Of a stretch of 64,000 nucleotides of DNA, positions 51,901 to 64,000 are shown piece by piece. Position numbers and translations under genes: made by a program. The stretch spans positions 186,001 to 250,000 of the forward strand of contig DATATI010000083.1 of the NCBI GenBank assembly GCA_036268875.1. Direction: 5' to 3'. This stretch comes from Polyangia bacterium (GTDB lineage Bacteria; Myxococcota_A; Polyangia; Fen-1088). Each line of letters opens with the position of its first letter. The first letter of the stretch is position 1. Under the pieces are notes generated by a model. That model was not told the origin of the DNA and ran no database searches. It saw nothing but the letters and a program-made list of their open reading frames with translations.

Positions 51901-53813
51901 CCATTGCGATCAGCGGCGGGAATGGCCAGCGCGCGTTCCAGCAGCGTCGCAGCGCGCGTGGCCACGTCGGCGTCGGCTTCGGTGCCGTCATCACCTTTGT
52001 CGTTGGAAAGCGCAATCGGCGACCTTGCCGGCGATCCGGCGGCGCTCAGCTCGGCGACGCGTTCGCCCCAGGCCGGACCCAGACCGCCGACCGCGCCGGT
52101 TTCCAATCCCGCTTCCAGCGCGCGCGCCGCGCCCGCGGCGTCGCCACCGGCCCAAGACGCCGCCGACCATTTCCAGAACGCCGGCACCGACGGCCAGACC
52201 CGGGCCACCTCCCGCCAAGCGTCGCTGGCCGGCCCGGCGGCTTGCGCCAGGGCCCACGACGCCGTGGCCACCCGCGCCGGATCGTGGGCGGCCCACAGCC
52301 GCAGAGCGAGGGCTCGCTGGTCGCCAGTGCTGCCGGCGGCCGTCGCCTCGGCCAGCAAGGCCAGCGGAACCGCGGCCGGCGATTCGCCCAGGGTGGTCTC
52401 GGCGATCGACAACGCCTGCGCTTCGTCGCCCGCGTTGGCCAGCGCGCGCGCTTGGCGCCAGGCCAGCGACGCGCGCGCGTCGGCGTCGCTGTCGGCGGCC
52501 ACCGCGGCGACCAACGTCTCGGTCACCGCTCGATCGAAGACCCGCCCGCCCAGCGCCAGCTCCAGACGATCCCGGCGCAGCGACGGTGAATCGCCGGCTC
52601 CGGCGGCGGCGGCAAGAATCTGCGCCGCCCGCGCCTCGTCGCCGCGCCGGCGCGCCAACCGGGCGGCCCAGCGCGCCACCCCGCGCCCCAGCGCTGACGA
52701 CGGCGGCAGCGCCGACAACAGCTCGTCCAGCGCTGCGGCGGCGCCGGGCTCGTCGTCGACGGACATCCGCGCCACGTCAGGCAGGCGACCAATCAGACCG
52801 GCGACGGTGGTGCCACCGAGGCGCGCGGCCACGAAACGCTGCTCGGCCGCGGTGCTGACGTCGCCGGCCACGGTGTGAAGGCGGGCCGCCGCCGTCAGCA
52901 GCGCGGCACCGAGCGTTCCGCCCACCGCGTACGCCGCTTGCTCCAGCGAGCCGGCAGCGGCCGCCGGATCGTCGCGACGGATGGCCAGCTCGGCTTCCGC
53001 CAGCCAGCGCGAAAGACCGGCGGGCATGGCGGCGGCCGCTTTTTCGCCGCGGGCCAGCGCCCACTCGGCCTGCACGGTTCGATAGAAGGTCCGCTCGTCG
53101 CCGCTGACCGCGTCCACCAGCCGGCCCAGCGCCACGAAAGCGCCGTCGCGATCGCCGCGCGCCTCCAGCAGGCGAAAGCGCGCCCGCCGGGCGGCCGCGT
53201 GGCCGGGCTGCAAGATCAGCGCATCGTCATACAGCCCCAGCGCATCGTCGCCATCCCCGGACCGTTCGGCGGCGCGCGCGGCGGCGACGGTCAGATCGGC
53301 TTGCTGAGCGGCGGTGTCGGCCACGCTCAGCTCGTCGATGAGCTGGCGCCCGAAGGTCTTCCAGTAGGCCGGTGACGCCGCCTCGGTGGGCGGCAGGGTT
53401 TCCGGGACGGCGACCACCTGGCGCAGATCGCCGCGCCAGGGCTCTTCGCCCATCTCCGGCAGCGGCTCGACGACCAGCGACACCGGGTCTTCCGGGGGAG
53501 GCTCGTCGGCAAACAGACTCGGCGGCGCCTCGATCGACCCCACCGACGCGACGATCGATTCGTAGATCCCTGACGGCGGGCCCTGGGCAAAGTCTTCGGC
53601 GGCCGCCTCGGCCAGCTGGGCTTCGCTGGCCACCATCGTGGTGGGCGTTTCGATGAAAGGGTTCTCCTCGCCCGGCGTGGCCCCTTCGGTGGCGATCGGC
53701 AGCCGGGCGTCCCATTCGGCCAGCGCCGATTCCCACTCGCGGTCGTCGACCGGGAACGGCGCGGGCGGCGCTTTGGGAGTTTTCGGCATTTTCGGATCGT
53801 CGGGATCGCTCAT
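48966..53813 (-). CDS. Giant TPR protein, 1615 aa
   Basis: No signal peptide or membrane segment is visible. After an acidic low-complexity N-terminus with Pro/Glu-rich stretches come about 1200 residues of Ala/Arg/Leu-rich helical repeats of TPR type, for example DALGLYDDALILQPGHAAARRA, HRRALSRLADLQYEDGAFAEAAEL and DAKRAAGAYGRLLQLDAANREAL. A non-repeat C-terminal domain of about 250 residues follows, including ALVLGAEIINL, GANAVGLLAAGDLPASL and LNFALSDPYADL. The same order of elements occurs in the 1668-aa neighbour, so they look like ancient paralogues. The start overlaps that gene's stop (ATGA). Probably a cytoplasmic scaffold; the role is unknown. Confidence 0.75.
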   Translation of the reverse strand: MSDPDDPKMPKTPKAPPAPFPVDDREWESALAEWDARLPIATEGATPGEENPFIETPTTMVASEAQLAEAAAEDFAQGPPSGIYESIVASVGSIEAPPSLFADEPPPEDPVSLVVEPLPEMGEEPWRGDLRQVVAVPETLPPTEAASPAYWKTFGRQLIDELSVADTAAQQADLTVAAARAAERSGDGDDALGLYDDALILQPGHAAARRARFRLLEARGDRDGAFVALGRLVDAVSGDERTFYRTVQAEWALARGEKAAAAMPAGLSRWLAEAELAIRRDDPAAAAGSLEQAAYAVGGTLGAALLTAAARLHTVAGDVSTAAEQRFVAARLGGTTVAGLIGRLPDVARMSVDDEPGAAAALDELLSALPPSSALGRGVARWAARLARRRGDEARAAQILAAAAGAGDSPSLRRDRLELALGGRVFDRAVTETLVAAVAADSDADARASLAWRQARALANAGDEAQALSIAETTLGESPAAVPLALLAEATAAGSTGDQRALALRLWAAHDPARVATASWALAQAAGPASDAWREVARVWPSVPAFWKWSAASWAGGDAAGAARALEAGLETGAVGGLGPAWGERVAELSAAGSPARSPIALSNDKGDDGTEADADVATRAATLLERALAIPAADRNGRSEALEKVLAVAPEHPIALALLLVQGAHRPDAVATALWTLGTTAPGDGEGSIDSDEQRRAQLQAVEWLIQGSNRLRALELARTLGARHPDWPPARDVLRQLAVTGPSQSERARLLLSVVDPASSAAAALLLAEAHEQLGEREEALALFRRLAPSEFAGDAQRGLARLENTHEESPVSARFDGWLQAARAGRWGELCDRLENEPPTEEIAGAGTLYLAALLDDGRRDGKRSGRLIREAFAAASVRRGGAGPGLMPALRALDAALAQPDATPGEVVGAAQAVATRIARGEGRSAPRSAAAALVDAALALQARAHVEQAETLLRAALAHDPHSLPALAGLRSLLVDSPSWRDVVDLCEREAALLRVPAYRAATLLFAARVVLARGADDPSRAVSLLRQVLSIAPDNQDAFARLRVVLEEAGDDARVVELLAARIAAATNPFEITALRLARADRLSARLGDRAGARAELAAILHKEPQHRRALSRLADLQYEDGAFAEAAELYISRARSERAPERLREIFLRLGRIYMHQLPDAKRAAGAYGRLLQLDAANREALEALSDLYTAAGENKNALVVTERLVELEHDGARRVAYLVRLGQLWERAGNPRQAGAHFRRAVDEAPRDLQALGELARHLERTHDFAGRRVLLDHALSVLRFEIHEGRLSVETLRTAAPILEWRGKTAAAAAAAQLVAAVADDADAREAVAGWAAPPAQGRSLAALGDSEVDDQLFPPALLPGVRNIFRLLGPSLAKGAPDLKPHNLGRGDRLPRDHAARAIIDAVAAQLGVGDFDVHVKRSDDSRAAAALIAEPGTPPALVLGAEIINLGPAAVRFAAGRTLRLCATHLDQLLRQPLEVTGALVVGVARQFVDDFQHPQVSEMAAAAGVARVGRLLSRKLRQDVMHFALESATGFDLQALVAAVRDGANAVGLLAAGDLPASLAAVLAARGGRRPLTLTAIAADDEALALLNFALSDPYADLCRAME

Positions 53814-56800
53814 TGCTCGCTCCCGGCGGTTCCCGCTTCGGCGCGCAACTCCAGATACGCGCCGTCCAGGCCAAAGCGCACGAGGTCGATCGCCGCCTCG
53901 CTGGTCTGCAGCCAGGCGGCGTCCACCACGCCGCCTGGTCCGGCGGCCACCACCCGCGCCGCGGTGGCCACATCGCCGGCGATCACCAGGCCCAGACGGT
54001 CGGCCGTGCCCAGGACCGCGCGCCGCCAGGCCTCGACGTCGGTGGCTTCGAAGGCAAAGCGCGAGGCCTGCAGGGCCAGCGTTTTTCGATCCTTGCGCGC
54101 CAACGCCTTACCCAACCCTTTCACAACCGGCGCGAGCGCGGCCGCGTCGGCGTCCGTCGGCGGCGGCGCGCCCGCCAGCGCGCCAGCGGCCAGAAAAATA
54201 TAGCGAAGGCCGTCGGTGGGCAGGCGATCCAGCACCGAAGCGCGCTGGCGCAAAAGAGACAGGGCCCGCCCGAACCGAAAACGGGCGCTGGCTCCGCCCA
54301 GCAGCGCGGCCCGATCGAAGATCAACGCCGGCTCCGGCAACTCGACGCAGGCCACCCTGGTGTCGCCGTCGGCGCTGGGCGATGGGCCTGAAGACGAAGC
54401 GGGCGGCGACGCCGCATAGAACGACAGCCCCTCGATGCCCAGCGCCGCCGCGGTGGCTTCCACCCAGTGCAGCCGCGGCTCATTCGCCGGCGCCAGCCGA
54501 TTGGCCCGCGAAAGGCCCAGGCCGGCCAGCGCAGCGGCGTCGGGCCGATGCATTTCGGCGACGGCGTCCGCGATCAATAACCAGATCTCGGTGAAGAAAC
54601 CCGCCGCCTGCGGCAACGCCAGCCGATCCCAAAACGCCGACGCCGAAAGCCCAGCCCCGAGCCGCCGACGCGGCGGCGGCGCCGCCAGCGGCTCGGCGAT
54701 CTCGCCCAGCAAGGCCAGCGTCTGTTCGACCGGGGCCGCCGCGTCGTTGCCGGCGCCGTCGCGTTGAAGAAATTCGCGCAGGCGGTGCAGACGAGCGACG
54801 TCCAGCGGCCGGGCGGCCAGCGCCTGGCGCAGGTCGGCGATCTCCCGGGCGATGGCGCGCCAGCGGCCGGGCGCATCGCCCAGCGATTCATAAAGCGCCA
54901 CCAGAAGACGCGCCCCCTCGCCCAGCGGATCCAGGTCGGCGGCCAACCGAAACGACTGCGCGGCCCCGCTTTGATCCAGCGCGTGATCGCGCAGCAGCGT
55001 CCCGATGCGGATGTACAGCTTCGCTTTCTCCTGCGGAACCGTGGTGGCCTGGTCCCACGCCCGCAGCGCCGCCAGCGCGCCCCGCCAGTCGCTGACCCGC
55101 AACAGGAGATCGACCAGGCGTTCGCGCGGGCGGGCGTCCGCGACCGAAGCGGCCGCCGCGTACCCCAGGATCTCCACCGCCCGGGCCGGCTCGTGCAGGG
55201 TCTCGTAGGCCGCCGCCAGATCCAGCCGCGCCTGCGCCGCGCGGTCCGGGTCGCGCGCCACCGCCAGGTAGCGCTCCAGCAATCCGACGGCGTCGGCCGG
55301 CGACGATTCGGCGATGGCCAGCGCCGCCAGCTCGCCCAGGGCTTCCTCGTGATATGGCACGATCTTCAAGATTCGCTTGAAGTCTTGTACGGCTTCTTCA
55401 CGGTCCAGATGGAGCAGGCGATGGCGCGCCCGCTCCAGCAGCAGCGGCACGCGGGCCGGCTGTTCGTAGGGCAGCAACGACAGGCGATGGCCAAGCAAAC
55501 GATCATAGTCGGCCGCCCGCGCCGGTCGATCCAGGGCGCCGGTCAGCAGGGTCGTCAGTCGGGCCGTCGCCGCTTCGTCGCCGGGGCGTTCGCCCAGCAC
55601 GCAGAAGTAAAGCGACAGCGCCGCGTCGACGCGACCGGCCTGTTCGTAGAGGCGCGCGCCCTCGGCGAACAAGGCCGCCGCGCGCCCGCCCTTGGCCAGC
55701 GTCCCCAGGCGCGCCAGGGCGCGGGCCTGGCCCAGGGCATCGCCCGCGCTTTGAGCCAGCCGGCGCACGCCTTCGATGGCCTCGACGGATTCAGGGTCGC
55801 GGGCCAACACCCAGCCGTAAGCGTCCAGCGCCTCACCGGCGCGACCGCCCAGCTCGGCATCGACGGCCCGCTCGAGATCCAGCGCTGCGCCCAGCGTGCC
55901 GCCCGCCGCCGCCGCGCGCGCCGCCCGCGCCGCGCCCAGGCCCGACAGCGACGGTGCAGGCGGGAGCAGTGCCGGCAGATCGGTCAGTCCATGTTGCAGC
56001 GCCGACGCCTCCGGCAGCTCGCGCCAGGCCAACATCTGCACGCGCTGCGCGTCCACGGTCCCCCCGAGGCGCGCCCGCGCCGCCGCCCGCGCCAGCAACG
56101 CCGGCATGATCTGCGCGCGATCGTCGGACGCGCGACCAAGCGCCAGCAGCGCGTCGCCCACGGCGCGGGCGTCGTTGCCGCGCACGGCAGCCATCCACGC
56201 GCCCAGCGCCACGTCCGCAGCGTCGGCTTCAACCGCCGCGTCCGCCGCCGCGGTTCCGCTGGAGGCCAGCGCCGCCAGCGCTCCGCCCTCGCCGGCCGCC
56301 GCAGCCAACAGCTGACCTTCGCGGCGCGCGGCGCTGGCCAGCGCGGGATCGTCTGCCGATGCCGCAGCGACCGCGGCCAGCGACTCCACCAGCGCGTTCA
56401 CCGTCGGCGCGGGCGCCGCCGCCGCGCACCGCAAAGCGCCCAGCGCCGCGTCCATCACCGGCGTTCCGGCGGCGCGCGCGGCCTCGGCATATCGATCGGC
56501 CGCCTCCGACCAGCGGCCCTGCGCTTCGATCGCTTCCGCCAGCGCCAGCGAGTCGTCCATCGTCGGAGACCGCCCCGGCGTTGGCTCCGTCAGGAGACGC
56601 GCCAGCCAGTCGGGGCGCTGGGCGGCGCGGGCCAGATCCAGGCTGAAGGCGCGGGCCAGGCGATCGCCGACCGCCCGCAACGGTTGCAGCGCCGCCAGCA
56701 CGCCGTCGCCGCGACCGCCATCGGCGCACGCCACGCTCAGGCGAAAACGCAACGCCCGCGCCACGGCGCCGGCACCGCGCGCCTCGGCGGCGGCGATCTC

Positions 56801-58816
56801 GGCGGCCAGGGCTTCGGCGCGCGCTTGCCCCACTTGCCCTTCGGGGAACGCCGGACCGGCCAGCAGCGCCTCCAGGCCGGCCGCCGTTCGATCGCTGTCG
56901 TCGGCGGACAGCGCCTGCCGAAAAAGCGCCGCTGCCCGCCGCCGATCGTCGTCGACGCGCACGGTCCCCACCAACGCCCACGCCGCCTGCGCGCGCAGCG
57001 CCGCCGCCAGCGCCGGATCATCGGCGTCGACCGCGTCGCCAAGCGCGGTCAGTTCGTCGACCATCTCCCGATCGCCTCCGCCGCCCGCCGACGAATGCCC
57101 CGCCTCGATCAAGAATGCCAGGTCGATCAGGCGGGCCAAGGCGCGCACCCGCGCTGGGCCTGGCGGCGCTGTCGCCACCAGGCGGCGCTGGTGGGTCCGC
57201 GCCCGGGCCGGATCGCGAAGTTCGTCGCGGCACAGGACCACCAACGATTCCAGCAGGCCGCGCCGCCGGTCGTCGTCTTTGTTCGACATTTGATCCAGGC
57301 TGGCCAGCTCGGCCTCGAACACACCGGCCAGTTCGCCGCCGCGTCCGGCAGCGCGCAGCTTCTTGGTCAAAGCGACGATCGCCGGGCGATAGCCGGGCGC
57401 CAGGGCCAGCGCCTTGCGCATCAACGATTCGGCGCGATCGCCTTGCTCCAGCGCCCACTCGGCCAGCGCGGCGGCGCGCAGAAACGCTTGCGCGGCGCGC
57501 AGACCCGACAATCGCTCGCCGTCGCCTTCGAAGGCCGCCGCCAGCGTGGCCGCGTCGCCGGTGCGCGCGCGCAGCACGGCCTCGACGGCCGATACCCGCG
57601 GATCGGCCGCCGCCAGGTCGGGATGAACCTGTAACAGGGCCAGCGCGTCCGCCGGGCGCGCCTGTCGCGCCAGCACCTCGGCCTGACGAAGGACGATCTG
57701 CCGGCGCAACGGATTCGGCGCCCCGTCGACGGTCTCCGGGCAAAGATCGAAAACCTGCTCCAGCAGATCGCCGCGGTTCAGGTGATCAGCGATGTCGGCC
57801 ATGGCGATGGCCAGCACCGGGTGCGTGGGGTGCAGGGCCAGCGCTTCGCGAAACGACGCGAAGGCCGCCAGCGGATCGTCCAGCTCGCCGCGAAACAGCC
57901 GGCCCTGTTCGCGCAACAGCGCCGCCACCAGCGCGGGGGGCGGCGGTTCTCCCGGCCCGGTCCGCCGCGCCAGATCGCCCAGCGCCGCCGCCCGCACGCG
58001 CGGATCGCGGGCCCGGGTCAGCGCCTCCAGTTGCTGCAACAAGGCTTCGCCGTCACCGACCGACGGCGAGGTCAGCGCGTCGCCGATGGTGCGCAGGGCG
58101 CGGCCTTCACCATCGTCGGCCGCCGCGCGCTGCGCCCGCGCCAGTGCCGCCGACACCGTCGCCTCCGACGACGACCCGCGCGCCAGCCGAGCCAATCCGT
58201 GCAGCGCCGTCTCGGTCGCCGCCGCGTCGCCGGTGCGCGCAGCCAGCAGCAGCAAGGCCAGCAACGCCGGCGGGTGATCGACGACCACCTCACCGGTTCC
58301 CGATCCGGTGGTCGATCGAGGCGCGGTCAGCGCCGCTCGATAACTGGCGTCGGCGTCGGCGTTGCGGCCCAGGTGATCTTCCAGGACCCGCCCACGTTCG
58401 ACCCACAGATCAGCCTTGTCACCGAGCGGCAACGCCGGGTGCTGCAGCGCCCGATCGAGCAGCGCGACCAGCGCCAGCCAGTCGCCTTGCGCCGCCAGCA
58501 GCCGGCGCAAGGGGCCGAGCGGCGTCACGAACAACGGATCGGCGACGATCGCTTCCTGATAGCAGCGCACCGCTGCCGCCTCGCTGCCCGCCGCCGCCAG
58601 CCGTTCGCCCATGGCGTGCAGCAGCGGCGCCGTGCGGACACCTTCGCGCGGCGGGACCACGCTTTCGCCTCGATAAAGGTCGACGGCCGCCGCTGGCTCG
58701 GCGATCCACGGCGCGGGCTGTGGGCCGTATTCCGACGACAGCACAGCTCGCTCCGTCGAATCGGGAGCGATCACGATCGGCGCCGGGTCATCGCCGTCGG
58801 GGCTTCCTGATGGCAT
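53810..58816 (-). CDS. Giant TPR protein, 1668 aa
   Basis: First gene of the pair, soluble and Ala-rich (roughly 20% or more by eye). TPR-like helices run through most of it, such as RCYQEAIVADPLFVTPLGPLRRL, ALLQVHPDLAAADPRVSAVE and GEALDAYGWVLARDPESVEAI. The last 250 residues carry a domain in register with its neighbour: ALIFDRAALLGG, RFGRALSLLRQRASVLDRL, TADRLGLVIAGDVATAARV and LVRFGLDGAYLEL. The region could be a degenerate enzyme fold; no HExxH or other metal motif is seen. It is transcribed away from the ETF-like genes, about 85 nt off. Confidence 0.75.
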   Translation of the reverse strand: MPSGSPDGDDPAPIVIAPDSTERAVLSSEYGPQPAPWIAEPAAAVDLYRGESVVPPREGVRTAPLLHAMGERLAAAGSEAAAVRCYQEAIVADPLFVTPLGPLRRLLAAQGDWLALVALLDRALQHPALPLGDKADLWVERGRVLEDHLGRNADADASYRAALTAPRSTTGSGTGEVVVDHPPALLALLLLAARTGDAAATETALHGLARLARGSSSEATVSAALARAQRAAADDGEGRALRTIGDALTSPSVGDGEALLQQLEALTRARDPRVRAAALGDLARRTGPGEPPPPALVAALLREQGRLFRGELDDPLAAFASFREALALHPTHPVLAIAMADIADHLNRGDLLEQVFDLCPETVDGAPNPLRRQIVLRQAEVLARQARPADALALLQVHPDLAAADPRVSAVEAVLRARTGDAATLAAAFEGDGERLSGLRAAQAFLRAAALAEWALEQGDRAESLMRKALALAPGYRPAIVALTKKLRAAGRGGELAGVFEAELASLDQMSNKDDDRRRGLLESLVVLCRDELRDPARARTHQRRLVATAPPGPARVRALARLIDLAFLIEAGHSSAGGGGDREMVDELTALGDAVDADDPALAAALRAQAAWALVGTVRVDDDRRRAAALFRQALSADDSDRTAAGLEALLAGPAFPEGQVGQARAEALAAEIAAAEARGAGAVARALRFRLSVACADGGRGDGVLAALQPLRAVGDRLARAFSLDLARAAQRPDWLARLLTEPTPGRSPTMDDSLALAEAIEAQGRWSEAADRYAEAARAAGTPVMDAALGALRCAAAAPAPTVNALVESLAAVAAASADDPALASAARREGQLLAAAAGEGGALAALASSGTAAADAAVEADAADVALGAWMAAVRGNDARAVGDALLALGRASDDRAQIMPALLARAAARARLGGTVDAQRVQMLAWRELPEASALQHGLTDLPALLPPAPSLSGLGAARAARAAAAGGTLGAALDLERAVDAELGGRAGEALDAYGWVLARDPESVEAIEGVRRLAQSAGDALGQARALARLGTLAKGGRAAALFAEGARLYEQAGRVDAALSLYFCVLGERPGDEAATARLTTLLTGALDRPARAADYDRLLGHRLSLLPYEQPARVPLLLERARHRLLHLDREEAVQDFKRILKIVPYHEEALGELAALAIAESSPADAVGLLERYLAVARDPDRAAQARLDLAAAYETLHEPARAVEILGYAAAASVADARPRERLVDLLLRVSDWRGALAALRAWDQATTVPQEKAKLYIRIGTLLRDHALDQSGAAQSFRLAADLDPLGEGARLLVALYESLGDAPGRWRAIAREIADLRQALAARPLDVARLHRLREFLQRDGAGNDAAAPVEQTLALLGEIAEPLAAPPPRRRLGAGLSASAFWDRLALPQAAGFFTEIWLLIADAVAEMHRPDAAALAGLGLSRANRLAPANEPRLHWVEATAAALGIEGLSFYAASPPASSSGPSPSADGDTRVACVELPEPALIFDRAALLGGASARFRFGRALSLLRQRASVLDRLPTDGLRYIFLAAGALAGAPPPTDADAAALAPVVKGLGKALARKDRKTLALQASRFAFEATDVEAWRRAVLGTADRLGLVIAGDVATAARVVAAGPGGVVDAAWLQTSEAAIDLVRFGLDGAYLELRAEAGTAGSEQ

Positions 58817-59956: not shown

Positions 59957-60642
59957 GGATCATCGTTTGCCTGCGCTCGGGCCTGCTGGAGATCGACAAC
60001 CGCCGCTGCAACGATCCGCCGCTGGCGATGGCCCTGCCGCTCGGCGACGCGCACGAGATCATCGCCCTTTTGCCCGACACCGCCGGCCACGTCGATTCGC
60101 TGCACCGGGCCTTGGCCGCGGGCGCGACGCGCGCCGTGCGCTTGATTGACGACCAGATGAGCACGACCGACTATCACGGGCTTGGTCAGCTGCTGGCCAG
60201 CGCCGTGCGCGCGCTGGGTGGCGATCTGGTGCTGCTGGGTTCGCCGTTCGATGACGAGGGCCTGGGCGCCATGTCCGCCGCGCTGGCCAAGCACCTCGGC
60301 GTGGTGCACGTCGCCCGCGTCGAGGCGATGGCCGCCGGCACGACCGCCGGCGCGGTCGAGGTCACCGTGCGCGGCGGCGGCCGCAAGCGACTCCTGCGCG
60401 TGGCCGCGCCCGCCGTGCTGTCGGCGGTCGCCCCGCCGACCACCGACGTCGCCCTCCCCACCCGTGCCAGCGACGCGCCGCCGACGCCGGCGATCGAAAC
60501 CCTGTCGCTGTCCGATCCCGAAGCTACCGTGGTTCGCCGCCGCACCGAACACCTGGGTCGTCCGGAGATCGCCTCGCGCCAAACCCAGATCGCCGATTCA
60601 GCGGCGGAGCTGATCGAGATCTTGACCAAGCGGCCGGCTTAG
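59953..60642 (+). CDS. Electron-transfer flavoprotein beta-like subunit
   Basis: A 229-aa protein starting with TTG at 59953, overlapping the alpha-like stop (TTGA). It has the EtfB layout: RIIVCLRSGLLEID at the N-terminus, IALLPDTAGHVDSLHRALAAGATRAVRLIDDQ in the middle, and LLASAVRALGGDLVLLGSPFDDEGLGAMSAALAKHLGV for the AMP-binding region. The consensus VKQVPD is replaced by LRSGLL and the C-terminal part is shorter than usual. Open frame further upstream (from 59086) is shadow. With its partner it may carry electrons from an unknown dehydrogenase, or have lost redox function. Confidence 0.6.
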   Translation: MRIIVCLRSGLLEIDNRRCNDPPLAMALPLGDAHEIIALLPDTAGHVDSLHRALAAGATRAVRLIDDQMSTTDYHGLGQLLASAVRALGGDLVLLGSPFDDEGLGAMSAALAKHLGVVHVARVEAMAAGTTAGAVEVTVRGGGRKRLLRVAAPAVLSAVAPPTTDVALPTRASDAPPTPAIETLSLSDPEATVVRRRTEHLGRPEIASRQTQIADSAAELIEILTKRPA

Positions 60643-62000
60643 CCGAGCTCGCGGATCAGCTGTTCCAGCCGGGCGCGTTCGTTCAGCGACGGATCGTCCA
60701 GCACGCGCTCCAGCAGTTTTTCCAGCACCACGCCGATCTGGCGCCCGGGTCCGATGCCAAGGACGCGCATGACGTCCTGGCCGTTGACGACCAGGTCGGT
60801 GATCTTCAGCGCGGCGTCGGCGGCCGCCACTTCGCCGACGCGTCGGCGCAGCTCGCCGATCTCGATCGCCGGATCCTCGTCGAAGCCGCGGCCGGCGATG
60901 TCGCCCTCGCGCAAAGCGAACAGATCGTCGACGCCGCCCGGCCCCACCCGGCGCACGAAGCGGCGCACAGTGCCGTCGGTCCAATCCGGCGTGTAGAAGA
61001 ACATGTGGTTGGCGACGATGGCCACCACCCGCTCGCGCTCGCTGGTCGACAATTTCAGGCGGCGGCAGATGGCGTCGGCCATCTCGGCGCCCACGTATTC
61101 GTGCTTGAAGAAGCTGAACTCGCCGGGCGCGCCCTCTCGCGGCTGGCGCGCGCGCGGCTTGCCCACGTCGTGTAGCAGCGCGCCCAGGCGCACGATGGCG
61201 TCGGCGCGCGTGTGGTCCACGACCGACAGCGTGTGGTGGTAGACGTCGAACTTGTGAAAGCGGTTCTGCACCACACCCACGCCCTCCAGAAGCTCGGGCA
61301 CCACCTCGCCCAGCAATCCAGAGGTGCGCATCAGCTCCAACCCTCGCGATGGGAGCGGCGCGCCCAGCAGCTTCAAAAGCTCGTCGCGCAGGCGTTCGGC
61401 CGAGACCTTGCGGACCACCTCCAAGGTCAGCGGGATGGCGTCCAGCGTGGGCAGATCGATGTCGAAGCCCAGCTGCGCAGCCTGGCGGACGGCGCGCATC
61501 GGACGCAGCCCGTCCTCGCGAAAGCGGGCCAGCGGATCGCCCACCGCGCGCACCAGCTTGCGGCCAAGATCGCCCTGCCCGTCGAACGGATCGCTGAGCT
61601 GTCCGCTGACCGGATCGAAGCCGACGGCGTTCATGGTGAAGTCGCGACGGGCCAGATCGTCCGCCAGCGACGACACGAACGTCACCGACGACGGCCGCCG
61701 CCCGTCGACGTAGGCGCCCTCGCCTCGGAAAGTGGTGACCTCGACCGGCCGGCGCGGCGAGGCGTCGGTCAGCACGGTGACCGTGCCGTGTTGCAGGCCG
61801 GTGGGGATGGCGAAGCCGTGGCCGAACAGGGCCAGCACCGCTTCCGGCGGCGCGCTGGTGGCGACGTCGAAGTCGGCCGGCGGCCGGCCCAGCAGCAGAT
61901 CGCGCACGCCGCCGCCCACCAGGTGCGCCTGATGACCGGCCGCCACCAGGCGGCGGCACAGCGCCAGCACGTCAGCGGGAATTTGCCCTGGATCAATCAT
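60639..62000 (-). CDS. cca: CCA tRNA nucleotidyltransferase / poly(A) polymerase family with HD domain
   Basis: A 453-aa class II nucleotidyltransferase. The head domain has HLVGGGVRDLLLGRPPADFDVATSA, with the catalytic DxD. RRDFTMNAVGFDP, DGQGDLGRKLVRAVGDPLARFREDGLRPMRAVR and RVSAERLRDELLKLL follow. The C-terminal half holds an HD phosphohydrolase domain, YHHTLSVVDHTRADAIVRLGALLHDVGKPRA, as in long bacterial CCA enzymes. It adds or repairs tRNA 3' CCA ends; poly(A) polymerase is an alternative that cannot be ruled out. It precedes rnc by 13 nt downstream of it in the operon, and its stop overlaps the convergent ETF gene. Confidence 0.88.
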   Translation of the reverse strand: MIDPGQIPADVLALCRRLVAAGHQAHLVGGGVRDLLLGRPPADFDVATSAPPEAVLALFGHGFAIPTGLQHGTVTVLTDASPRRPVEVTTFRGEGAYVDGRRPSSVTFVSSLADDLARRDFTMNAVGFDPVSGQLSDPFDGQGDLGRKLVRAVGDPLARFREDGLRPMRAVRQAAQLGFDIDLPTLDAIPLTLEVVRKVSAERLRDELLKLLGAPLPSRGLELMRTSGLLGEVVPELLEGVGVVQNRFHKFDVYHHTLSVVDHTRADAIVRLGALLHDVGKPRARQPREGAPGEFSFFKHEYVGAEMADAICRRLKLSTSERERVVAIVANHMFFYTPDWTDGTVRRFVRRVGPGGVDDLFALREGDIAGRGFDEDPAIEIGELRRRVGEVAAADAALKITDLVVNGQDVMRVLGIGPGRQIGVVLEKLLERVLDDPSLNERARLEQLIRELG

Positions 62001-62013
62001 CGTTGGCGCGGCG

Positions 62014-62727
62014 CTAGTCGCTGCCGCCGTCCAGCGCCGTCAGTGCCAAGGCGGCCGCGCTTTGCTCCGCCTCTTTCTTCGAACGGCCGCCGGCCCGACC
62101 ATACTCGCGCCCGTCGAGAAAGATGGCCACCTGAAAGCGCTTGTCGTGATCAGGCCCGTCCTCACCGACCACTTGATACTGGGGCGTGGCCTGCAGCAAC
62201 GCCTGCGACCGTTCCTGCAAGCGCGACTTGTAATCGGCGCGCGCGTTCTTCTCCGCTTCCTCGAGCGCCCGTCCGAACAGACGTTCGGCCACTCCGTGCG
62301 CAGCGGCGAATCCGCCGTCCAGATAGACCGCGCCGATCATCGCCTCCAAGGCATCCGACAGGATCGACGGCTTGCGGCGCCCGCCCGCCAGATCTTCGCC
62401 GCGACCGAGAAAGATCCACTGTCCGAGGCCCATCTCGTCGGCGGCCTTGGCCAGGGCGGCCTCGCTGACCACGGCGGCCCGGGTCTTGGACAGCTCGCCC
62501 TCCGAACGCAACGGAAACCGTTTCATCAGAAGATCGCTCACCACCAAAGCCAGCACGGCGTCGCCGAGAAATTCCAGCCGTTCGTTGTCGGTGCGCCCAG
62601 GCTCGTGCTTTTCGTTCAGCCAGGATTTGTGGGTCAACGCCGATTCGCACAGCGCCCGATCGACGAACCGATAGCCAAGCTGGCGCTCCAGCGCGGCGTA
62701 CCCGTGGTCATCGGACGGCAAGTCCAT
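62014..62727 (-). CDS. rnc: Ribonuclease III
   Basis: A 237-aa double-strand RNA endonuclease. The signature is NERLEFLGDAVLALVVSDLL, and the second metal site includes ILSDALEAMIGAVYLDGG. The C-terminal dsRNA-binding domain has DYKSRLQERSQALLQATPQY and GGRSKKEAEQSAAALALTAL. ATG at 62727 is the standard start; an open frame running upstream to 63102 is a shadow of the MnmA frame. It processes rRNA and other structured RNAs. It lies 58 nt after the desulfurase-MnmA gene and just before cca, a group of RNA-processing genes. Confidence 0.97.
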   Translation of the reverse strand: MDLPSDDHGYAALERQLGYRFVDRALCESALTHKSWLNEKHEPGRTDNERLEFLGDAVLALVVSDLLMKRFPLRSEGELSKTRAAVVSEAALAKAADEMGLGQWIFLGRGEDLAGGRRKPSILSDALEAMIGAVYLDGGFAAAHGVAERLFGRALEEAEKNARADYKSRLQERSQALLQATPQYQVVGEDGPDHDKRFQVAIFLDGREYGRAGGRSKKEAEQSAAALALTALDGGSD

Positions 62728-62785: not shown

Positions 62786-64000
62786 TCAGCGCGGGTCTTC
62801 GATCCAGCCGCCGCCCAGCACGCGATCGCCGTCGTAGAAGACCGCGGCCTGTCCCGGTGCCACGCCGATGGCGGGCGCGTCCAGCAGGACGGTGACGGCA
62901 GCGGGCGCGTCGGCGGCGGGCGAGATCCAGGCCGGGGCGGCGGCGGCGTGGTGGCGGATCTGCACCTCGCAGCGACGGCGGGCGACGGTGGTGGCGGCGG
63001 CGTCCAGCCAGCGCACGTCGGCGACCTGCAGGCCCTGGCGGCCCAGGCTTTCGCGCGGACCGACGACGACGTCGCCCGTCGACGGCTCGACCCGCAGGAC
63101 AAAGCGGCGGTTGCCGTCGACGCCGGGCAAGCCCTTGCGCTGACCGACGGTGAACCGGTGCGTGCCGTCGTGGGCGCCGAGGCGCGCGCCGCTTTCGTCG
63201 CGGATGACGCCGGCCGGGCCGGCGCCGCCGCGGGCTTCGACGAACGCCTTGTGGTCGCCGTCGGCGATGAAACAGATCTGCTGCGAATCAGGCTTGTCGG
63301 CGTTGGGCAAGCCGGCGCGCCGGGCCACCGCGCGCACCTCGGCCTTGGTCATGGCTCCCAGCGGAAAGCGCACCCGGGCGAAGATCTCGGGACGCACGCC
63401 GAACAGAAAGTACGACTGGTCTTTCTGGCGATCGACGGCGCGCAAAAGATACGGCGCGGTTGGTCCGTCGTCTCCGATCACCAGCCGCGCGTAGTGCCCG
63501 GTGGCCAGCGCGGCCGCGCCCACGGATTCGGCGAAGGCCAGCAGCGGCCCGAATTTCAGGCGTTCATTGCAGCGCACGCACGGGTTGGGCGTGCGGCCGA
63601 TGCGATGCTGGTCCACGAAGTCGTCGATCACCGCGCGCCGGAAGGCCTGCGTCTCGTCGAGCACATAGTGCGGGAAGCCCAGCGCGGCGGCGGTGGCGCG
63701 GGCGTCGGCGATGTCGCGCGGGCTGCAGCAGCGCCCGCCCACGCTGGCCGACGTACCGGAGGCGTCGTACAGCTTCAGCGTCACGCCCACCACCTCGACG
63801 CCCGATTCGACCAGCAGCGCCGCCGCCGTCGACGAATCCACGCCGCCCGACATCGCCACCACCACCCGTTCGCGCCCGGCGCCGGTGATGCGCGGCGCCG
63901 ATGCATCCGCGTCGCCGCGCAGCCGGGCAACAATCCCCGGCAAGCAACCGAGCAAGCGATCGATGTCGGCCTCAGTCGTCGTCCGACCGAGGCTGATGCG
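62786..64000 (-). CDS. mnmA: Cysteine desulfurase-MnmA fusion (5' part outside window)
   Basis: The frame is open from the right edge. Its first 28 residues, RISLGRTTTEADIDRLLGCL..., are the C-terminal end of a NifS/IscS cysteine desulfurase (family pattern RFSLGRxTTExEID). After a short linker of about 20 residues the sequence enters MnmA: PP-loop VVVAMSGGVDSSTAA, NPCVRCNERLKFG with the catalytic cysteine, ALATGHYARL, SQQICFIADGDH with the second cysteine, and FTVGQRKGLPG. MnmA adds sulfur to U34 of tRNAs, and a desulfurase supplies that sulfur. No stop separates the two parts, and only TTG or GTG could start MnmA alone. Confidence 0.85.
   Translation of the reverse strand, partial: RISLGRTTTEADIDRLLGCLPGIVARLRGDADASAPRITGAGRERVVVAMSGGVDSSTAAALLVESGVEVVGVTLKLYDASGTSASVGGRCCSPRDIADARATAAALGFPHYVLDETQAFRRAVIDDFVDQHRIGRTPNPCVRCNERLKFGPLLAFAESVGAAALATGHYARLVIGDDGPTAPYLLRAVDRQKDQSYFLFGVRPEIFARVRFPLGAMTKAEVRAVARRAGLPNADKPDSQQICFIADGDHKAFVEARGGAGPAGVIRDESGARLGAHDGTHRFTVGQRKGLPGVDGNRRFVLRVEPSTGDVVVGPRESLGRQGLQVADVRWLDAAATTVARRRCEVQIRHHAAAAPAWISPAADAPAAVTVLLDAPAIGVAPGQAAVFYDGDRVLGGGWIEDPR

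Follow-up and report, generated by a model that had tools for sequence, protein, structure and literature searches.

The fused gene

The window, i.e. the whole stretch of 64,000 nucleotides that was analysed (G000:C83:186001-250000), belongs to a 6.15-Mb Polyangia genome assembled in 95 contigs and about 97% complete. At its right end lies a minus-strand frame (62786-64000), starting RISLGRTTTEADIDRLLG, which is open for 404 codons. The preliminary description had read the edge of this frame as the C-terminus of a cysteine desulfurase, continuing without a stop through a short linker into a complete MnmA, the tRNA 2-thiouridylase. Reading the contig past the edge bears out both parts of this description. 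There is no stop codon or frameshift just beyond the window, and the frame stays open up to an ATG at window-equivalent position 65056, outside the window, giving a protein of 756 amino acids. The whole gene thus occupies G000:C83:248786-251056, which is 62786-65056 in window-equivalent numbering, on the minus strand; the part inside the window (62786..64000) codes for residues 353-756 and the stop codon. Pfam places a complete Aminotran_5 domain at residues 3-368 (1e-72) and the three MnmA domains (HUP, M and C) at residues 397-752, the MnmA match being repeated with NCBIfam. The aminotransferase domain found to the right carries, in the same frame, the PLP lysine (SAHK205) and the catalytic cysteine (STGAAC327). 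The analysis confirms that the gene codes for a complete NifS-class cysteine desulfurase (residues 1 to about 381), a linker and a complete MnmA.

Two genes follow downstream on the minus strand, both named from Pfam matches: the RNase III gene rnc (62014..62727) and a gene for a tRNA nucleotidyltransferase/poly(A) polymerase with an HD domain (60639..62000). The order of the desulfurase-MnmA locus, rnc and the nucleotidyltransferase gene is conserved in four related genomes (G001, G007, G011 and G003) of genera g2 and g4. Further along the same strand there is an open frame of 1668 amino acids (53810-58816), alanine-rich and repeat-like, with no Pfam match at 1e-5.

The two halves and the linker

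Only the C-terminal end of the desulfurase domain, residues 353-381 (63914..64000, minus strand), is found in the window. It is of NifS class, in agreement with the fold of a homologue. Residues 1-352, including Lys205 and Cys327, fall immediately to the right, and these two residues are invariant in an alignment of the four fusions found (see below). The desulfurase half scores 400.6 bits against a NifS cut-off of 530.75 and 303.9 bits against an IscS cut-off of 643.2, both below; judged by these scores it is a member of the NifS/IscS class, yet not NifS or IscS proper.

The MnmA domain, residues 397-752 (62801..63868, minus strand), consists of a HUP/PP-loop domain, a PRC-barrel and a C-terminal beta-barrel, and with 381.6 bits it passes the NCBIfam MnmA cut-off of 284. 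On the minus strand it has the PP-loop motif SGGVDSS (residues 403-409, 63830..63850), a CC motif (Cys443-Cys444, 63725..63730), a CxxC motif (Cys493-Cys496, 63569..63580), where E. coli MnmA has DxxC, and Cys595 in SQQIC595F (63272..63274), all invariant in the four fusions. From the alignment and the position of the motif Cys595 would be the counterpart of the catalytic Cys199 of E. coli. By its CC-CxxC-C signature (Cys443/444, 493/496 and 595) the MnmA half is classed as C-type, following the definition of the class in PMC11784392. This class is thought to carry a [4Fe-4S] cluster (PMC8584467, PMC11784392). The signature therefore suggests that the sulfur is probably accepted either by a [4Fe-4S] site with Cys493/496/595 as its ligands or by Cys595 in persulfide form, and the fused MnmA would, we infer, depend on its cluster.

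The linker comprises residues 382-396 (63869..63913, minus strand). In the four fusions it is 15-20 residues long; its sequence varies, its length is nearly constant, and the differences in length are whole codons only. A sequence free to vary with a length kept in whole codons is what is expected of a tether. Structure was judged from an AlphaFold model of a homologous fusion from the sister genus (G007), not of the protein of the window. In this model both domains are confident (mean pLDDT 90.3) and the linker is disordered, with low pLDDT, so the linker is probably flexible; a pTM of 0.59 is too low to place the domains relative to each other. Foldseek searches with the same model match the first domain to IscS/Nfs1 (E 4e-39) and the second to MnmA structures. 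Comparison by sequence with solved structures likewise paired the first half with chains of IscS/Nfs1 and the second with MnmA, and none of the 60 chains listed spans both halves. By analogy to IscS, the protein is expected to form a dimer through its desulfurase half.

Distribution of the fusion

A search for further NifS-MnmA fusions, as the preliminary description had proposed, turned up the same architecture in a sister genus of this family, where three genomes from separate assemblies carry it with 66% identity; in one of them the contig begins inside the fused gene. The idea that an assembly or sequencing error has joined two overlapping genes has a certain mechanical appeal, since in the separate relatives of genus g4 the two genes, in different frames, overlap by about 10 nt and a single indel could join them. 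Given that three further genomes have the join too, in a protein 66% identical, and that linker lengths differ by multiples of three, we regard such an error as extremely improbable.

Altogether 592 genomes of the phylum were examined, 318 of the same class and the rest sampled from other classes. Among the matches listed, uninterrupted full-length ones occur only in genera g1 and g2; a very divergent fusion could escape this search. A number of candidates were rejected: in G052, G309, G397, G405, G456, G473, G481, G514, G523, G531, G571 and G575 all of the full-length matches contain stop codons, and at the loci checked, L077 and G315 included, the desulfurase and mnmA are separate genes. None of the 29 loci returned by a scan of genome contigs has the fusion outside the family, and among the annotated records re-read from a tblastn search of plasmids none is described as a single fused gene. 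No natural NifS-MnmA fusion was found in the literature searched, which was mostly outside subscription journals.

Origin of the fusion

Within the same family the two genes are found at different distances. They overlap by about 10 nt in genus g4 and by a few nt in genus g5, are some 60 nt apart in g7 and about 2.7 kb apart in g3. In other families of the phylum the genes are commonly neighbours. At loci from several of these Myxococcota families (L087, L096, L097, L099, L102, L103 and L105) they share a reading frame and are separated by a stop codon, an arrangement close to a fusion, which loss of the stop would bring about. At two loci (L038 and L040) of g4, a genus near the fused ones, a longer desulfurase tail overlaps the start of mnmA, which might mark either an intermediate on the way to fusion or the breakup of a former one.

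The best explanation of this gene order is that the fusion arose by joining of an already adjacent desulfurase-mnmA pair. A tree of the concatenated halves groups the four fusions, with weak support (72/71), as one change; in a tree of the desulfurase alone the copy of the window groups with g4. The simplest reading is a single fusion in the common ancestor of the two sister genera. The alternative is two fusions, or one fusion with a later split in g4.

One polypeptide or two

The preliminary description had stated that only TTG and GTG codons exist for an internal start of MnmA. This agrees with what is found: two in-frame TTGs lie in the desulfurase tail (63955 and 63943), GTGs lie in the first strand of MnmA (one near 63865), and the sole ATG in the joint region of the gene is the one inside AMSGG. 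Most of the separate relatives have a start codon and a Shine-Dalgarno core ahead of mnmA, e.g. AGGAGG in g4 and GAGGTGAT in g3; a few lack a recognisable core. In the four fused genes none of the internal starts is preceded by a Shine-Dalgarno core of more than 3 nt, and no internal start codon is common to the four genomes. These two absences favour one polypeptide.

It might be argued that the fusion is partly formal, with MnmA being produced on its own as well, or for the most part, through internal initiation or cleavage of the linker by proteases. The TTGs and the GTG are available in frame, the linker lacks conservation and is probably flexible, and sister genera do make separate proteins from overlapping genes. 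It should be noted too that one of the fusions of the sister genus (G011) has an in-frame ATG within the linker, which counts against a single chain. We nevertheless find separate production unlikely: to the lack of a ribosome-binding core and of a shared start can be added that the GTG sits in the first beta strand of MnmA, and that G007 has no start at all between the desulfurase tail and an ATG beside the PP-loop. We infer that one chain is made from the fused gene.

Sulfur supply in the genome

The fusion is the only full MnmA of the genome. Profile models for TusA and TusE/DsrC found no match in this genome, about 97% complete, while the control genomes were positive; nor did the DsrH/TusB model give a match at the search threshold. 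In an assembly of 95 contigs at this completeness the absence of tusA and tusE is not absolute. A tandem of divergent DsrE/DsrE/DsrH-like genes is present (L116:2808-3968; G000:C95:18307-19467), with scores far below the TusB and TusC cut-offs. Without TusA or TusE such a triad could not make up the relay known from E. coli. The suggestion made earlier that the fusion might bypass the relay fits the genome, with its single MnmA and no match to TusA or TusE/DsrC. The accompanying statement, that desulfurase and MnmA are normally separate and pass sulfur through Tus relays, holds for E. coli; it does not hold for Bacillus, in which YrvO acts directly, and adjacent pairs are common in the phylum.

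The second desulfurase of the genome is a canonical IscS, encoded beside IscU, HscB and HscA (L110:1233-6434, G000:C78), the latter three named by reading their sequences. The operon is preceded by an apparent MerR-type regulator, not an obvious IscR. IscS stands in an isc operon both in this genome and in those of the sister genus, and its identity to the sister-genus copy is 86-88%, where the fused desulfurase reaches about 60%. A separate and better conserved IscS together with IscU-HscB-HscA indicates that Fe-S supply is separate from the fusion. A dedicated desulfurase linked to mnmA, the mark of a pair of YrvO-MnmA type, is found here in the fusion itself beside the separate isc-encoded IscS.

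The desulfurase half could instead mainly serve other acceptors (Fe-S assembly, ThiI or a general persulfide pool), its tether to MnmA being incidental. Desulfurases of IscS type can serve many acceptors (PMC5372745), and a C-type MnmA likely needs an Fe-S cluster itself. Against this stand the IscS of the isc operon, in the own and the sister genomes, and the frequent position of this type of desulfurase beside mnmA across the phylum; we judge a main role elsewhere to be quite improbable.

A model for the fused protein

The reading which we prefer, and which we consider likely, is that the fusion is a bifunctional, MnmA-dedicated and relay-free s2U34 synthase in one chain, similar to YrvO-MnmA. 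Cys327 would take sulfur from L-cysteine as a persulfide with the help of the PLP on Lys205. The persulfide sulfur would be handed across the flexible tether of 15-20 residues to the C-terminal MnmA, without TusA, TusBCD or TusE. MnmA would adenylate U34 of tRNA Lys, Glu and Gln at the PP-loop and then insert the sulfur. The direct transfer is proposed by analogy to B. subtilis, where YrvO passes its sulfur to MnmA with no intermediary (PMC5372745, PMC11784392). Given this direct hand-over in Bacillus and the adjacent pairs in the phylum, the fusion would tether partners which work without a relay and would require no new chemistry.

The B. subtilis pair has a dedicated desulfurase adjoining mnmA, no Tus relay and direct hand-over (PMC5372745, PMC11784392), features which the fusion would share in our reading, but it consists of two proteins, whereas here there is one chain with the desulfurase first. 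An engineered fusion of B. subtilis MnmA and YrvO stands in for the parasite's own MnmA in the apicoplast of Plasmodium (PMC10219651), so that desulfurase and MnmA in a single polypeptide can be functional. That fusion is artificial, with the reverse domain order and a 15-bp linker, whereas the one described here is natural and runs NifS-MnmA. The IscS-TusABCDE-MnmA system of E. coli carries out the same overall thiolation of U34 from cysteine sulfur, but with relay proteins, of which TusA and TusE were not found here, a shared housekeeping IscS and a D-type (DxxC) MnmA. The C-type MnmA of Thermus thermophilus ([4Fe-4S], CxxC-C) shares the CC-CxxC-C signature and is described as a stand-alone enzyme (reviewed in PMC8584467), whereas here the enzyme is fused. 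Another natural joining of a desulfurase to a sulfur acceptor is the desulfurase-rhodanese fusion of Pseudorhodoferax, bifunctional in vitro (PMC8931425); its acceptor is a rhodanese, the present one a tRNA thiolase. The functional pair is known; what the fusion adds, judged by the literature searched, is a natural merger into one chain, seen in a few related bacteria that are uncultured and akin to the myxobacteria.

A more tentative idea is that the desulfurase, being tethered, charges the [4Fe-4S] site of the C-type MnmA with sulfur directly, giving a self-sufficient protein from cysteine to s2U34. This is possible, though we would rather bet against it; if true, it would provide a tractable system for studying sulfur delivery to an Fe-S MnmA. 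The fixed 1:1 ratio of donor to acceptor in one chain would help in studying the disputed step, cysteine persulfide versus [4Fe-4S] sulfur, since a single purified enzyme supplied with cysteine, ATP and tRNA would do for following it. In genomic terms the fusion is evidence, here from a Gram-negative phylum, that MnmA can be the sole and direct client of a desulfurase, and it extends what is known from Bacillus.
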